From Verrucomicrobiota bacterium (GTDB lineage Bacteria > Verrucomicrobiota > Verrucomicrobiia > Opitutales > Puniceicoccaceae): DNA of 64,000 bases. This document shows positions 7,657 to 14,040 of this stretch, piece by piece. The notes beneath the pieces are model-generated. The model was not told the DNA's origin. It was given only the letters and a program-made list of their open reading frames with translations, and did not search any database. Location: positions 1-64,000 of the forward strand of contig JBCDMB010000004.1 in the NCBI GenBank assembly GCA_038744685.1, given 5' to 3'. Position numbers and translations under genes: made by a program. Position 1 is the first letter of the stretch; every line of letters begins with the position of its first letter.

Positions 7657-8091
7657 TTATCTCGATCCCAGATGATTACGGATGGCTTCTAAAGTTTGCG
7701 GGCTTAGGTGGTGTTCGATTCCTTCTGCGTCGCTCTCTGCGATCTCTTTTGGCACACCGAGGGACAAGAGAAAGGACTCGACTGTCTCATGGCGTTCGTA
7801 ACATTCCTCTCCTAGGCGTTTTCCTTTTGCGGTCAGAGTAATGCCCTTCGTGGTTCTCCGTAGAAAACCTGCTCCCTCCAGCTTGTCGAGCGCCCGAATC
7901 ACCGTGACGTGGGAGACTGCAAATACTTTCTGTAAGTCGACGATTCTCGTGGCTTCGTTTTTACGGGACCTCCGGTAGATGGACTCGACGTAATCTTCGG
8001 TCCGTTCTTCACGGTGCTGACCACGGATTAGGCGATGAGCACGTCTGAGACGTTTTCGAGTGTCAGTATCCGCATGTTCGCTGCTGCCCAT
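7657..8091 (-). CDS. mntR: MntR/DtxR-family manganese-dependent transcriptional repressor
   Basis: A 144-residue regulator: winged helix (about 30-90) plus the metal-binding dimerisation domain. Aligned to Bacillus MntR, all six metal ligands are kept: Asp33, Glu36, His101, Glu123, Glu126 and His127, matching D8, E11, H77, E99, E102 and H103. The Asp rather than Met at the first position is the Mn-specific form. There is no C-terminal SH3-like domain. The first 25 residues are a basic extension, so a later start is possible. It is divergent from the barrel gene at 8177 and close to the ABC operon at 9161, both of which carry a matching dyad. It probably represses both when Mn(II) is plentiful. 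Confidence 0.88.
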   Translation of the reverse strand: MGSSEHADTDTRKRLRRAHRLIRGQHREERTEDYVESIYRRSRKNEATRIVDLQKVFAVSHVTVIRALDKLEGAGFLRRTTKGITLTAKGKRLGEECYERHETVESFLLSLGVPKEIAESDAEGIEHHLSPQTLEAIRNHLGSR

Positions 8092-8141: not shown

Positions 8142-8177
8142 TTGACTGCCAAGAAGAAAAATGTAGCCAAGGCTACA
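8142..8177 (+). promoter_or_regulatory. Putative MntR promoter-operator of the outer-membrane barrel gene
   Basis: TTGACT (8142-8147) is followed after 14 nt by the dyad TGTAGCC-AA-GGCTACA (8162-8177), whose two 7-bp arms are perfect inverted repeats. A weak -10 (TAGCCA, 8164-8169, 16-bp spacer) would lie inside the dyad, so a bound repressor would block it. The last base of the dyad is the A of the start codon, so transcription would start at or next to the ATG and the message would be leaderless. The same geometry recurs at 9123-9158. Binding by MntR is inferred from the neighbourhood. Confidence 0.65.
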
Positions 8178-8950
8178 TGAAAGAAAAATACCAATTGATT
8201 TTGTCAGGAATGGTCTTGGCTGCAGCGCCAGTGCTCTCACAGACAGAGGCTGAACTCGAGGAACTCGAGAAAGACGCCCCTCTAACGTTTCTCGATGAAC
8301 TGAAAGGCGAGGCTAATTTTACCGCTGGATGGGACAGTATCTATCTGGCGGAAGGACGGGATGATTTGGGAGATGGCGGTCTGGTTTATGCTGAATTTTC
8401 GGGTACGATTGGACCCGCCGCTTTGGGGACCTGGTTCGCCGACGGGACCGAGGTCGATTACAATGAGTGGAACATTTTTGGCGAGTTGTCTGCTGAACTA
8501 GCGGATGGCCTCGAGGGTTACATCGGTTACACACACTTGATCTTCTTCGATGATGGAGAAAGATCCGACGACGACGAGCTTGGGGTGGGTCTTACCTATG
8601 TGATCCATGAGTTTCTTGAGACTGCTGTTGATGCGGTCTACTCGTTTGAAGCCGGAGGAGCATTTCTCGAATTGGGTCTGGGAGTTCCTGTTGGAGTGAC
8701 TGATTCGTTTTCTCTGGCGCCCAACGCGATCCTAGGACTCGATTTTGGATATAGGACGGATGAGTACGATGGCTGGAATCACTTTCAAGTTGGAATTGAT
8801 GCGGAATATTCGATCGGTGAACGACTTGCGATTGGTGGATACGCGGCTTACGCCTTTGCGCTGGAAGACATCGATCGTGAAGAAGACGAAACTGGCGAGG
8901 ACATTGGAGACAATCCAGCCTTTGGCGTCTTTGCCTCCATTTCATTCTAA
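8177..8950 (+). CDS. Outer-membrane beta-barrel protein, probably metal-regulated porin
   Basis: A 257-residue protein with a signal peptide (start M-K-E-K, hydrophobic core to about residue 22). The rest consists of alternating amphipathic strands ending in a terminal Phe (A-S-I-S-F), the C-terminal signature of outer-membrane barrels. It is acidic, with a D-D-G-E-R-S-D-D-D-E segment and an E-D-E-T-G-E-D loop that could attract cations. It weakly resembles TorF-like porins; I do not recognise a named family. I chose the ATG at 8177 because it gives the signal peptide; an upstream in-frame start at 8060 lies inside mntR. The operator overlaps its start. Letting Mn(II) into the periplasm under scarcity is an inference. 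Confidence 0.75.
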   Translation: MKEKYQLILSGMVLAAAPVLSQTEAELEELEKDAPLTFLDELKGEANFTAGWDSIYLAEGRDDLGDGGLVYAEFSGTIGPAALGTWFADGTEVDYNEWNIFGELSAELADGLEGYIGYTHLIFFDDGERSDDDELGVGLTYVIHEFLETAVDAVYSFEAGGAFLELGLGVPVGVTDSFSLAPNAILGLDFGYRTDEYDGWNHFQVGIDAEYSIGERLAIGGYAAYAFALEDIDREEDETGEDIGDNPAFGVFASISF

Positions 8951-9122: not shown

Positions 9123-9158
9123 TTGACACACGGTGAAAACAATGTAGCCATAGCTACG
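9123..9158 (+). promoter_or_regulatory. Putative MntR promoter-operator of the metal ABC operon
   Basis: TTGACA (9123-9128), a 14-nt gap, then TGTAGCC-AT-AGCTACG (9143-9158). The GTAGC/GCTAC core is a perfect dyad; the outer bases are relaxed compared with the copy at 8162. The dyad ends two bases before the ATG at 9161 and no Shine-Dalgarno lies between, again pointing to a leaderless message. Identical spacing from the -35 in both promoters is the main argument that these are functional. Confidence 0.65.
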
Positions 9159-9160
9159 AA

Positions 9161-10189
9161 ATGAGAAATCACCGGAAATCCTTCAAACTTTTGACAGTGC
9201 TCCTCGGAAAACGTTTTCGCGCTTCCACGACTTTCTTCTTAGGACTGGCAGCTTTTTGCGGAATGACACTTTCCTCTTCTGAAGTCAAAGCGGGCCCGGA
9301 GGAATATCCTTATGAGGTAGCGGCTACCGTGGGCATGATTGCGGATATTGTCCGTGAAGTTGCTGGAGATAAAGCTGAGGTGACCGCAATAATCGGTGAA
9401 GGGATCGACCCTCACCTGTTCAAGCCCACAAGGAGTGCCCTCGTTGCCTTGGATCAGGCCGATGTGATTTTCTATAATGGACTGATGCTCGAGGGCAAAA
9501 TGGGAGATGTCCTGGTGCGACTGGCGAGGAAGGGTAAACCAGTGTATGCCGTCACCGAGGTGATCCTCGATGACGGGAATTTCGTTTTAACCGATGAAGA
9601 GGATCATTTTGACCCCCATGTGTGGATGGACGTCAAGGGTTGGATTCTTGCCACGGGAGTGGTAGCTGACGCACTTTCCGAATACGACCCAGCCAACGCA
9701 GACTTCTACAAGGAGAATGCGGAAACTTACACGACCCAGCTAAGAGCTTTAGAGCAGTATGCGACGGAGGTGATGGAGACGATACCAGAGAGCCAGCGCT
9801 ACCTTGTCACTGCGCACGACGCCTTTAGCTATCTGGGCCGGGCGTATGGAATTGAAGTGCGAGGAATTCAAGGATTGAGCACCGAGTCGGAAGCGGGTGT
9901 GCGGGATATCGAAAACTTGGTTGACTTCCTCGTTGAGCAAGGGATTCCTGCTGTGTTCATAGAGACGTCGGTTTCAGATAAAAATGTGAGAGCACTGATT
10001 GAGGGAGCCCGTTCCCGTGGACACGAACTGGTGGTCGGAGGCGAGTTGTTCTCTGACGCAATGGGCCCTGCAGGAACCTACGAGGGTACCTACATCGGTA
10101 TGATCGATCATAATGTGACTATGATCGCGAATGCTCTTGGCGGCAAGGCCCCTGAGAGTGGAATGAATGGCAAACTCACGCATGAGTAA
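9161..10189 (+). CDS. mntA: Metal ABC transporter substrate-binding protein (TroA/MntA type)
   Basis: A 342-residue cluster A-I metal-binding protein. The signal peptide has a long basic n-region (R-N-H-R-K to about 20) and probably ends near residue 44. The metal ligands are His85 (D-P-H-L-F-K-P), His153 (D-P-H-V-W-M-D), His219 (T-A-H-D-A-F) and Asp299 (F-S-D-A-M-G). This His3-Asp set is TroA-like; pneumococcal PsaA has Glu as third ligand. No His-rich loop is present, which argues against a dedicated zinc ZnuA. Metal choice is therefore inferred from the MntR context. It overlaps the ATPase gene by 23 bp. Confidence 0.9.
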   Translation: MRNHRKSFKLLTVLLGKRFRASTTFFLGLAAFCGMTLSSSEVKAGPEEYPYEVAATVGMIADIVREVAGDKAEVTAIIGEGIDPHLFKPTRSALVALDQADVIFYNGLMLEGKMGDVLVRLARKGKPVYAVTEVILDDGNFVLTDEEDHFDPHVWMDVKGWILATGVVADALSEYDPANADFYKENAETYTTQLRALEQYATEVMETIPESQRYLVTAHDAFSYLGRAYGIEVRGIQGLSTESEAGVRDIENLVDFLVEQGIPAVFIETSVSDKNVRALIEGARSRGHELVVGGELFSDAMGPAGTYEGTYIGMIDHNVTMIANALGGKAPESGMNGKLTHE

Positions 10190-10970
10190 ATCGAGCGAAC
10201 GTGCGTTTGATCATTCCTCAAACGCGCCTATCTCGATTCACGATCTTACGGTCGCTTACCAACGCAAGCCAGTTTTGTGGGATGTTGATCTTGACATCCC
10301 GGAAGGCAAATTGATCGGTGTTGTTGGCCCAAATGGCGCGGGTAAAAGCACGCTCATTAAGGCTTGCCTTGACCTTGTCCCAAAGGCCTCTGGGGATATT
10401 CGTTTCTTCGGAAAGCCCTACCGCAAGCAAAGGGCTCTGGTGGGCTACGTTCCCCAAAGGGAAAGCGTAGACTGGGACTTCCCCGTAAGCGCAAGGGATG
10501 TAGTCGCAATGGGACTCTACGGCAGGATTGGCTGGTGTCGCCCGGTGGGGAGGAAAAACCGTGATCTTTCCGGGCAGGCGCTGGATCATGTTGGCATTGG
10601 CCACTTAGCGGATCGTCAGATTAGTCAGCTTTCCGGTGGGCAGCAGCAACGGGTCTTCCTCGCGAGAGCGCTGGCTCAAGACGCCCAGATTTACTTGATG
10701 GACGAGCCTTTTGCTGCGGTCGATGCGGCGACGGAAAGGGCAATTGTTAATCTTCTGAAAGAGCTGAAGGAAAAAAAACGGACTGTGGTCGTCGTTCATC
10801 ACGATCTCGCTACTGTAAGCCAGTATTTTGATTGGGTGATTCTACTCAACATGCGGGTTGTTGCAGCCGGACCGACCAGTGAGATTTTCAATTCGGAGAA
10901 TTTGAAAAAAACCTACGGTGGAAAGCTAACGCTGATCGCTGAGGCTGGGCACGCGCTGCAAACCGGCTAG
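10167..10970 (+). CDS. mntB: Metal ABC transporter ATP-binding protein
   Basis: A 267-residue cytoplasmic ATPase. Walker A is G-P-N-G-A-G-K-S-T (54-62). The Q-loop lies in V-P-Q-R, the signature L-S-G-G-Q-Q-Q-R is near 155, and Walker B Y-L-M-D-E-P-F is followed by the H-loop in V-V-V-H-H-D. The V-D-W-D-F-P stretch after the Q-loop is typical of Mn/Zn/Fe chelate-type ATPases. It starts inside the end of the binding-protein gene (ATG at 10167, or 10182), consistent with coupling, and ends two bases before the first permease. Confidence 0.92.
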   Translation: MANSRMSKSSERAFDHSSNAPISIHDLTVAYQRKPVLWDVDLDIPEGKLIGVVGPNGAGKSTLIKACLDLVPKASGDIRFFGKPYRKQRALVGYVPQRESVDWDFPVSARDVVAMGLYGRIGWCRPVGRKNRDLSGQALDHVGIGHLADRQISQLSGGQQQRVFLARALAQDAQIYLMDEPFAAVDAATERAIVNLLKELKEKKRTVVVVHHDLATVSQYFDWVILLNMRVVAAGPTSEIFNSENLKKTYGGKLTLIAEAGHALQTG

Positions 10971-10972
10971 GT

Positions 10973-12304
10973 TTGATGGAAACCGTTTGGAGAGTCCTCT
11001 TCCTCCTGGATTATAACACCCGCCTGGTGGTTCTGAGCACAATCATCCTGGGTGTTGCGTCGGGTTTGATTGGTAGTTTTCTGCTCCTCCGCAAGCGTTC
11101 GCTGATGGGCGACGCTCTTTCCCATGCCTGTCTACCGGGCATCGGCCTAGCGTTTCTGGTGATGGTTATGCTGGGCGGTTCAGGGAAGTCGCTTTTAGGG
11201 CTTCTGGTTGGTGCGACAATCACAGGAGTGTTGGGTGTGGGCTGTGTTTTGTTGATCCGCAATCTTAGCCGGATAAAAGATGATGCAGCGATGGGGATCG
11301 TCCTGAGTGTTTTCTTTGGCTTGGGGGTCGCGATTCTCGGAATGGTTCAGACGGTTCCAAACGTCAGTGCAGCGGGGCTTGAGTTTTTCATCTACGGTAA
11401 GACAGCATCGATGTTGTTCAGCGATTTTATCCTCCTTAGCGGGGTGGGTATTCTCGTAGTTCTTGGGTCTATCCTGTTGATGAAAGAGTTTACCTTACTC
11501 TGCTTTGATGATGGTTTTGCGCGGTCGCTTGGATGGCCCGTGCACCGACTGGATCTAATCATGTTGGCTTTGGTAAGCGCTGTAACAGTCGTCGGTTTGC
11601 AGGCAGTTGGCTTGATTCTGATTATCGCGTTTCTCATCATCCCTGCAGCAGCAGCCCGTTTTTGGACGGATGATCTGCGGACCATGCTCATTCTGGCCGG
11701 AGCAATCGGGGGATTGAGCGGATGGCTCGGCTCCTCGGTAAGTGCGCTCCTTCCCAGACTGCCAGCAGGATCGATAATTGTGCTTGTGGCAGCGGCTGTC
11801 TTTGGGTTCAGCCTGTTTTTCGGGCGCGCACGTGGCATTCTGCGCCGTTTTGCCGCGCAATTGCGGCTTCGGCGTAAGGTTGGACGGCAGCATTTGTTGC
11901 GTGGTGTCTACGAGATCCTCGAACATCGGCAGACGACAGACCCGTCCCACCTGGTGAATGAACCCGTCGATTTTCGAGAATTGTTGGCAAAGCGCACCTG
12001 GACGCTGGGTCATTTGCGGAAGTTGATCAAGGATGCTGATCACGAAGACCACATTGATCGGTTCGATGGCCAGTCGCTTCGCCTTTCAGAGTCAGGGTTC
12101 GGAGAGGCGGCGAGGACGACTCGCAATCACCGATTGTGGGAGATGTATTTGATTTCGCATGCCGATATTGCTCCGTCGCACGTAGACCGAGATGCGGATG
12201 CAGTAGAGCACGTGCTGAGTCCTGACATGGTTCGCGAGCTTGAGGAAAAATTGGGACTGCAGAAGATTCCAGTCAGCCCGCATTCTCTGGAGGTAGCCAG
12301 ATGA
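10973..12304 (+). CDS. mntC: Metal ABC transporter permease fused to a DtxR/MntR-like domain
   Basis: A 443-residue protein, about 150 longer than a normal permease. Residues 1 to about 285 are an ABC-3 family permease with eight or nine membrane segments and the motifs R-S-L-M-G-D-A-L-S-H and G-L-I-L-I-I-A-F-L-I. After a basic linker (about 286-300), the C-terminus resembles DtxR/MntR: a winged-helix part, then R-N-H-R-L-W-E and V-E-H-V-L-S-P. Aligned to MntR, His386, Glu412 and His413 keep ligand positions and Asp409 replaces a Glu. The N-terminal Asp and Glu ligands are lost (His and Arg instead). The tail should face the cytoplasm and may sense metal to gate transport; that is inference. 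DNA binding by a membrane-tethered domain is another option. Confidence 0.88.
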   Translation: MMETVWRVLFLLDYNTRLVVLSTIILGVASGLIGSFLLLRKRSLMGDALSHACLPGIGLAFLVMVMLGGSGKSLLGLLVGATITGVLGVGCVLLIRNLSRIKDDAAMGIVLSVFFGLGVAILGMVQTVPNVSAAGLEFFIYGKTASMLFSDFILLSGVGILVVLGSILLMKEFTLLCFDDGFARSLGWPVHRLDLIMLALVSAVTVVGLQAVGLILIIAFLIIPAAAARFWTDDLRTMLILAGAIGGLSGWLGSSVSALLPRLPAGSIIVLVAAAVFGFSLFFGRARGILRRFAAQLRLRRKVGRQHLLRGVYEILEHRQTTDPSHLVNEPVDFRELLAKRTWTLGHLRKLIKDADHEDHIDRFDGQSLRLSESGFGEAARTTRNHRLWEMYLISHADIAPSHVDRDADAVEHVLSPDMVRELEEKLGLQKIPVSPHSLEVAR

Positions 12305-12398: not shown

Positions 12399-13379
12399 GT
12401 GACGTGGTTGCCGATGGATTCCTGGATCGTGGCGATCGGGGCCCTGTGCGCAGTTGCCTGCTCTCTGCCGGGCTGCTTTCTCGTCCTGCGTCGGATGAGC
12501 ATGATGGGTGATGCGATTAGCCATGCGGTTCTCCCCGGACTTGCGATCGCGTTTTTGGTTTCAGGGAGTCGGGCAAGTGTTATTATGTTCGTAGGGGCGG
12601 CCATCGTGGGAGTGTTGACGGCAGTCTTTACCCAGTGGATTAGTTCCTGGGGTAAGGTGGATCGGGGTGCTTCGATGGGGATTGTCTTTACAACTCTTTT
12701 CGCTCTCGGGCTTCTACTGATTGTGCAGGCTGCAAGTCACGTTGAGCTTGATGCCGGTTGCGTCCTCTACGGGGCACTGGAGTTGACACCGCTAGATGTG
12801 GTTGCGGAGATTTCCGTTGGTTCCACTATCCTCGAAGTTCCTCGGGCTTTCATAGTTCTCGGGATTGTGGCTCTACTGAACCTTTTTTTAGTGATCCTTT
12901 TCTTCAAAGAATTCCGCTTGAGTTCCTTCGATCCCTCGCTGGGCGATACGATCGGAGTATCCTCCGGACTGATGCATTACCTGCTGATGACGATGGTCGC
13001 GGTCACGACTGTCGCTTCCTTTGAAGCAGTTGGGAGTATTATTGTGATAGCGATGCTGGTCGTTCCTGCGGCTACTGCCCAACTTCTTACGGATCGCCTG
13101 GGCTGGATGTTGCCGATCAGTGCCGTGTTGGGAATGGTCGCAGCAGCAGCAGGCCATATTATGGCTTTGACGGTTCCGGTTTGGTTTGGCTTTGAGGATA
13201 CGAACACATCCGGGATGATGGCGGTAGCGGCAGGCCTCCTCTTTCTTGCTGCTTTCGTTTTGAGTCCTCGTTACGGTTTGCTAAGCAAGTACCTTGCGAG
13301 GAAAGGGTTGAGTTCGAAGGGAGCGCCACCGATCCCCTCAGAAGCATTTTTTGGTAGAGACAGGAAAGATCCGCTTTGA
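12399..13379 (+). CDS. mntD: Metal ABC transporter permease, second subunit
   Basis: A 326-residue ABC-3 family integral membrane protein with about eight to nine segments. It has the R-M-S-M-M-G-D-A-I-S-H-A motif, as in the first permease, and A-V-G-S-I-I-V-I-A-M-L-V-V-P-A in the late membrane region. It has normal length and no DtxR tail, so the two permeases are paralogous but differently built, probably forming a heterodimer. It is 94 bp downstream of mntC, with its own strong ribosome binding site. Confidence 0.9.
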   Translation: MTWLPMDSWIVAIGALCAVACSLPGCFLVLRRMSMMGDAISHAVLPGLAIAFLVSGSRASVIMFVGAAIVGVLTAVFTQWISSWGKVDRGASMGIVFTTLFALGLLLIVQAASHVELDAGCVLYGALELTPLDVVAEISVGSTILEVPRAFIVLGIVALLNLFLVILFFKEFRLSSFDPSLGDTIGVSSGLMHYLLMTMVAVTTVASFEAVGSIIVIAMLVVPAATAQLLTDRLGWMLPISAVLGMVAAAAGHIMALTVPVWFGFEDTNTSGMMAVAAGLLFLAAFVLSPRYGLLSKYLARKGLSSKGAPPIPSEAFFGRDRKDPL

Positions 13380-14040
13380 CAGGAGAGTGGGTAGGTCTGA
13401 GTTTTCGGAGTTTCCCTGCGTTATCATTCTTTGCCAAACCTACAGCTGTCCTTTTTCGATCTACTGGTTGACCCTGCTCGCAGCCCTATTCTGGTCTCCA
13501 CATCCCGCTCATGCTGAGGAGGAATCGAATCCAACGAAGGAAGAAAGGAATTGGATGATTACGGTTTTCGGGGGGCAATTGACCGACAACGTGTGGGAAG
13601 AAGCAGTGAATCCAGAAAAGACTGACTGGATTGATTCGTATATCGCGGGAGTAGCCGTGGCCCGCGATTTTGCACACGAAGGAAGATTTGATTTTGGGTG
13701 GGAGCTGCAGATGGTCGTCCATTTTGGTGACCAGAATCACCTCGAAGGAAACGGTTTGCTCTACTCCCGATACGAAATGCCTTCGAGCTGGCGGATCTGG
13801 AAGAGCGCTGCTTTTGGGCTGGGGTTGAGTTATGCGACGGATGTTCCAGAGTCTGAGGTTGACCGCGGGGGAGACTCGACCAACACGCTGGTTTATTGGA
13901 TGGCTGAGCTTGAGTTTTATCTGCCACCGGACCACCTGACACTAATCGTCCGGCTGCACCACCGTTCCGATGCGTATGGACTGTTTCCGGACGATACCGG
14001 GACTAACGCCTTTGTCGCGGGATTACGGTGGCGGTTTTGA
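13351..14040 (+). CDS. PagL-like outer-membrane beta-barrel protein
   Basis: An open frame of up to 229 residues with a signal-peptide-like stretch ending P-A-H-A (about residues 38-55), then barrel-type strands and a terminal Phe (L-R-W-R-F). Near the C-terminus, R-L-H-H-R-S-D-A resembles the catalytic H-x-S of the lipid A 3-O-deacylase PagL and its relatives; a matching acidic catalytic residue is not clear. The start is uncertain. No ATG precedes the signal peptide; TTG at 13351 lies inside mntD and GTG at 13387 is the other choice. It directly follows the metal operon and may be co-transcribed. An envelope role is likely, but activity is not proven. Confidence 0.6.
   Translation: MVETGKIRFDRRVGRSEFSEFPCVIILCQTYSCPFSIYWLTLLAALFWSPHPAHAEEESNPTKEERNWMITVFGGQLTDNVWEEAVNPEKTDWIDSYIAGVAVARDFAHEGRFDFGWELQMVVHFGDQNHLEGNGLLYSRYEMPSSWRIWKSAAFGLGLSYATDVPESEVDRGGDSTNTLVYWMAELEFYLPPDHLTLIVRLHHRSDAYGLFPDDTGTNAFVAGLRWRF

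Follow-up and report, generated by a model that had tools for sequence, protein, structure and literature searches.

Gene Neighborhood and Importer Operon

The window analyzed here (64,000 nucleotides, positions 1 to 64,000 of contig JBCDMB010000004.1 in the Verrucomicrobiota assembly GCA_038744685.1) carries a metal importer operon with the gene order binding protein, ATPase, fused permease and second permease:

9161..10189 (+), substrate-binding protein of the TroA/ZnuA family (PF01297, E 1.1e-78)
10167..10970 (+), ABC ATPase, TroB/MntA/SitB-like; its top NCBIfam matches, all under cut-off, are to models for Mn and Mn/Fe ATPases
10976..12304 (+), fused permease, a TroC/YtgC-like ABC-3 permease with a DtxR-like tail, 442 aa from the ATG (80 homologous fusions)
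11024..11821 (+), ABC-3 permease domain of the fused protein, aa 18-283, PsaBC-like (PF00950, E 1.4e-56; 7kyp, E 3.4e-15, Z 33.3)
11837..11929 (+), continuous helix, aa 289-319, leading from the permease into DtxR helix 1 in the AlphaFold model, with constant spacing
11870..12301 (+), DtxR/MntR-fold tail, aa 300-443, made up of a diverged winged helix and a conserved metal/dimerization half (aa 373-428)
12399..13379 (+), second permease, TroD-like, without a tail in the window (a tail is present in 26 of 80 relatives)

The open reading frame of the fused permease (10973-12304, +) is present as annotated; its listed start, a TTG at 10973, is immediately followed by an ATG at 10976, and the ATG is the likelier start (442 aa, as against 443 from the TTG). 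For the operon, the nearest NCBIfam matches, to models of Mn, Mn/Fe and Zn importers, all fall below cut-off; the imported metal is likely to be Mn or Fe, with Mn, Fe or Zn all possible from the sequence. Located 3′ of the second permease is another open reading frame (13351-14040) that has no Pfam match and by eye looks like a small barrel protein of the outer membrane, perhaps a PagL-type lipid A deacylase.

Domains and Predicted Fold

The permease belongs to the ABC-3 family (192 bits for PF00950 against a gathering cut-off of 20.1), and the tail contains the metal-binding and dimerization domain of the iron-dependent repressors, PF02742 (Fe_dep_repr_C), at aa 373-428 (E 6.6e-13; 48.9 bits, cut-off 27). 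The initial annotation had proposed that the tail aligns with MntR over the winged helix as well as the dimerization domain, and had suggested structure prediction and superposition as the check; that check found an MntR/DtxR fold rather than the lack of one. The AlphaFold (AF2) model of the fused permease, built with 75 sequences, has a pLDDT of 91.5 and a pTM of 0.86; its permease part superposes on PsaBC (7kyp), and residues 300-439 match DtxR, IdeR, SloR and MntR across winged helix and dimerization domain alike. Foldseek assigned the tail to DtxR/IdeR/SloR with a probability of 1.00 (target-normalized TM-score 0.82 for 1ddn_A), while VIA-align matched residues 300-439 to DtxR 1g3t (Z 13.4, 127 residues, rmsd 2.6) and the tail to MntR 2f5d (Z 12.1).

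Distribution of the Fusion

The identical fusion architecture was found at 80 loci, at 43-71% identity, in Verrucomicrobiota, Planctomycetota, Kiritimatiellota, Sumerlaeota and Omnitrophota; the earlier suggestion that such fusions might exist in Planctomycetes and Verrucomicrobia was therefore right. Single MAGs of Fibrobacterota, Acidobacteriota and Pseudomonadota carry the fusion as well, which may reflect binning errors or transfer. A frameshift or assembly join as the source of the fusion is ruled out by the identical join in the 80 homologues.

In a sample of 194 Verrucomicrobiota genomes, 27 had strong matches to the tail, all in permease frames save one at a contig end. A frame of 171 aa (G115) was considered as a stand-alone copy of the tail class and rejected because it is cut by the contig end. 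The second permease is also tailed in 26 of the 80 loci (L055-L082, mostly Planctomycetota and Sumerlaeota; for example L061:7418-8785 and L074:7422-8825), and these tails are of a different ligand type (HLHxxAExxEH, DPHG). In an unrooted tree calculated from few columns, the fused tails and the stand-alone regulators are separated by a branch with an SH-aLRT support of 96%.

Metal-Binding Positions and the Joining Helix

Structural alignment places residue 307 at DtxR 10 (MntR D8) and residue 310 at DtxR 13 (MntR E11), so that the residue register of the initial annotation was correct. With DtxR as reference, and with the established ligand numbering for both of its sites, one site of the tail has His307 for Met10, Asp409 for Cys102, Glu412 for Glu105 and His413 for His106, and the neighboring site has His386 for His79, Glu390 for Glu83 and Asp405 for His98; in sequence, every named first-shell side-chain position (H307; H386, E390, D405; D409, E412, H413) holds a donor residue. 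H386, E390, D409 and E412 are conserved in 80/80 homologues, D405 and H413 in 79/80; H307 occurs in 63 of the 80, the others having D (12) or N (5), and the trailing SPH motif is kept in 74-78 of them. The metal-binding face described earlier, including His386, Glu412 and His413 as ligand positions, is thus conserved. The two N-terminal ligands had been described as replaced by His and Arg: the residues are as stated, and the “replacement” is not, since Arg310 (R310 in 80/80 homologues) equals the ordinary Arg13 of DtxR and His307 is plausible with DtxR as the reference. Similarly, Asp409 does differ from the Glu of MntR, as had been noted, but compared with DtxR it occupies the Cys102 position, and Asp is known to be functional there: C102D variants of DtxR with Ni and DNA are among the structure matches. 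A degenerate, non-functional tail is ruled out by the invariant ligand positions, and by its sequence the tail looks like a metal-binding domain rather than a decayed one.

In the AlphaFold model, the permease ends in a helix (289-319) that continues without interruption as DtxR helix 1, on which H307 and R310 are located; the second-permease model likewise has an unbroken helix (287-315). The spacing from G288 to E317 is 30 residues in 81/81 first-permease sequences and the equivalent spacing in second permeases is 27 residues in 25/25; the loop at 317-341 varies from 17 to 43 residues. Movement of the N-terminal helix, driven by metal, is part of the DtxR/IdeR switch (a literature search on the DtxR helix-to-coil switch returned nothing useful). 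A rigid join at DtxR helix 1, as modeled, would fit mechanical coupling to the permease better than it would a cleavable spacer.

We favor a tail that senses metal on behalf of the transporter (see below). The near-frozen metal/dimer half and the double-tailed relatives are also explicable if the tail is a scaffold or a metal relay, i.e., if it serves structure or assembly, or takes over metal at the channel exit, and does not regulate transport; the single tailed permease in the window is in keeping with this as well. A plain scaffold, however, needs no retention of all first-shell ligand positions in both DtxR sites, and a metal relay needs no constant coupling to helix 1; neither point is decisive, and we regard this explanation as unlikely.

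The DNA-Reading Half of the Tail

Every member of three alignments was scanned with Pfam: 75 first-permease tails, 25 second-permease tails and 35 stand-alone relatives. PF02742 was found in 75/75 and 25/25 of the two sets of tails, and PF01325, the DNA-binding half, in 0/75 and 0/25 of them at E up to 1; in the stand-alone regulators both domains were found (35/35 each). When metal-domain identity is matched (55-65%), the recognition helices of the two sets of tails are 29% and 21% identical, versus 55% for the stand-alones. The same is seen within genomes: over seven same-genome pairs, recognition-helix identity is 43% in the tails versus 71% in the stand-alones, with metal-domain identities of 77 and 72%, respectively. 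The recognition helix, then, drifts across the tails, with hardly any change in the metal half. As a fold, the winged helix persists (profile comparison aligns the entire length, 99.0%), and the invariant R341 and W343 and a basic helix are kept as well.

Taken at the level of sequence, sequence-specific DNA reading by the tails seems not to be under selection. A post-translational, non-transcriptional role for the tail, as the initial annotation had envisaged, gains support from a DNA-reading half that is unrecognizable as a family in 100/100 tails next to a metal half that is kept.

Stand-Alone Regulator and Candidate Operators

Upstream of the operon lie a separate regulator and two candidate operators:

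7657..8091 (-), stand-alone MntR of the E. coli type (NF008273, E 3.6e-36, below the curated cut-off)
8163..8176, candidate MntR operator GTAGCCAAGGCTAC, flanked by mntR and the outer-membrane-barrel gene
9144..9157, candidate MntR operator GTAGCCATAGCTAC, directly 5′ of the substrate-binding gene

The separate MntR that had been noted nearby is thus real and is accompanied by candidate operators before the transporter operon; in the whole genome there are only two PF02742 domains, that of this protein and that of the tail. The pattern GTAGCN4GCTAC has four exact sites in the 3.64 Mb genome versus 34 for the reversed control. Two of them are intergenic, one before the mntR/outer-membrane gene pair and one before the binding-protein gene; the other two were rejected as operators because they lie inside coding sequence (integrase, TolC-like). 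The E. coli MntR box (AACATAGCAAAGGCTATGTT) has an identical core. The perfect site at 8163-8176 is directly followed by the start of a small outer-membrane beta-barrel gene (8177-8950, weak PF13568) that is divergent from mntR, and its product is probably a manganese-regulated outer-membrane protein. In the Cerasicoccus loci L003 and L006, two or three tandem GTAGCN4GCTAC boxes lie upstream of mntR.

Another DtxR-family protein is encoded in 49/50 fusion genomes, the exception (G242) being a MAG. These stand-alone proteins are of two types, and so are the operators. Loci of genomes with the short MntR only have GTAGCN4GCTAC (M1) in six cases and [CT]TTTGAN4TCAAA[GA] (M2) in one, with neither in 6/13; at loci of genomes with a long DtxR, M1 occurs in 0 and M2 in 33 (Fisher p 1.8e-6, which overstates independence, since regulators and operators are clustered by lineage). 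M1 and M2 each occur in both Verrucomicrobiota and Planctomycetota. Operator type in this distribution tracks the stand-alone protein and not the tail, and because the tails stay alike across the operator and regulator groups, the stand-alone protein is the likelier reader of the operators. In L020-L049, a strongly conserved (C/T)TTTGAN4TCAAA(G/A) is found some 10-40 bp around the predicted binding-protein gene start, before the importer operon; this palindrome is likely a DtxR-type operator of marine Verrucomicrobiota.

These data bear on whether the tail could instead be a metal-dependent transcription factor, proteolytically released or acting at the membrane, like the YtgR part of YtgCR in Chlamydia. 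The gene order is that of Chlamydia, the tail is of about equal length (139 aa in YtgR; PMC6504234, PMC7755916, PMC5599777) and it keeps the winged-helix fold. Against this, its DNA-binding half goes unrecognized throughout and its recognition helix is poorly constrained, a stand-alone regulator is nearly always present whereas YtgR is the only one identified in Chlamydia, the operator type goes with the stand-alone protein, and the helical linker is of constant length, with no variable spacer. Taken together, these points make a transcription factor distinctly unlikely. Control of the stand-alone MntR by the tail, through mixed dimers or membrane tethering, could draw on the conserved dimerization half and the nearly constant presence of a partner, but it is very improbable given that tails and stand-alones are long separate lineages and that two quite different stand-alone types occur alongside similar tails, which is unexpected for a specific mixed dimer.

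Proposed Function of the Tail

Our preferred reading, to which we give an even chance, is that the tail is a DtxR-family metal-sensing and dimerization domain that has moved out of transcription and serves the transporter. Rising cytosolic Mn(II) (or Fe(II)) would bind His307, Asp409, Glu412 and His413 and would also occupy the neighboring site of His386, Glu390 and Asp405; the change would be relayed via helix 289-319 (DtxR helix 1 and its permease continuation), and import would slow or stop. Transcription of the operon would be governed separately by the stand-alone MntR through the GTAGCN4GCTAC operators. We infer here that the tail binds metal and affects transport, and likewise the sign of the effect and the identity of the metal. 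Transporters with two tails are consistent with sensor domains that work as a pair at the transporter.

More tentatively, it is possible, if somewhat short of probable, that a repressor domain of the DtxR type has become a post-translational metal gate of the importer, with its switch helix continuous with the permease and with metal acting on transport and not on DNA, and that in many Planctomycetes each of the two permeases has its own, complementary sensor tail, so that the pair is built in.

Several observations speak against a sensor. The winged helix, with R341, W343 and the basic helix, may permit some other kind of DNA binding; in Chlamydia, experiments support the homologue as a repressor; and as the transporter in the window has a single tail, a dimer of the DtxR type could form only between two transporters, the sensor being otherwise unpaired.

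If the tails do sense metal for the transporter, the manganese/iron ABC importers would include a class that has a feedback sensor dedicated to it, and a feedback-gated importer becomes directly testable. It would also show a repressor turning into an allosteric transporter domain and would raise the question of whether YtgCR regulates transport too.

Comparison with Known Systems

The closest described protein is YtgCR of Chlamydia trachomatis (CT069/CTL0325), encoded in the ytgABCD operon; its 139 aa tail, YtgR, is reportedly cleaved off as a 28-30 kDa product and represses ytgABCD and trpBA in an iron-dependent manner, with experimental support, and no further regulator of this kind has been identified in Chlamydia (PMC5599777, PMC6504234, PMC7755916). 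The permease-repressor fusion architecture is therefore already known, and the earlier statement that the function of such fusions is “not worked out” does not hold for YtgCR, on whose cleavage and iron-dependent repression there is published work (PMC5599777, PMC6504234, PMC7755916). Like YtgCR, the fused protein described here joins a C-terminal DtxR-like domain of about 140 residues to an ABC-3 permease, and its gene is the third of four in a metal importer operon. Set against the behavior reported for YtgR, the fusion family differs at the level of sequence: its DNA-binding half is no longer recognizable, a separate regulator is encoded alongside it, and both permeases are often tailed. 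A literature search on fused metal ABC permeases with DtxR, including in Planctomycetes, returned nothing useful.

With DtxR/IdeR and MntR the tail shares the winged helix and metal/dimerization fold, the ligand register and an SPH/PHG motif after the dimerization domain; it differs from them in being fused to a permease, in forming its own lineage and in its weakly constrained recognition helix, and from DtxR also in having His and Asp for Met10 and Cys102, Asp for His98, and no SH3/FeoA domain. The permease fold (PsaBC, Z 33), operon content and likely substrate class are those of the TroABCD/PsaABC/MntABC/SitABCD importers, for which we know of no cytosolic sensor domain on the permease. 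The proposed logic, in which transport is halted once the imported substrate binds to a cytosolic domain at the C-terminus, resembles that of MetNI and ModBC, ABC importers that are stopped by a substrate-binding cytosolic domain (PMC10710835). There, however, it is the ATPase that carries the sensor, which is of a different fold, whereas in the fusion family the sensor is on the permease and would be a repurposed repressor, with inhibition as our proposal.

A further subclass of fused permeases in Verrucomicrobiota (L122:2555-4060, minus strand, and L123:2436-4007) has HVHDDAENIEH ligands, and in these two sequences the DNA-binding domain is likewise not recognizable. MAG contigs labeled Chromatiaceae (L010 and L011) encode both a long DtxR and the fusion (66-68% identity), either through transfer between phyla or through a binning error.
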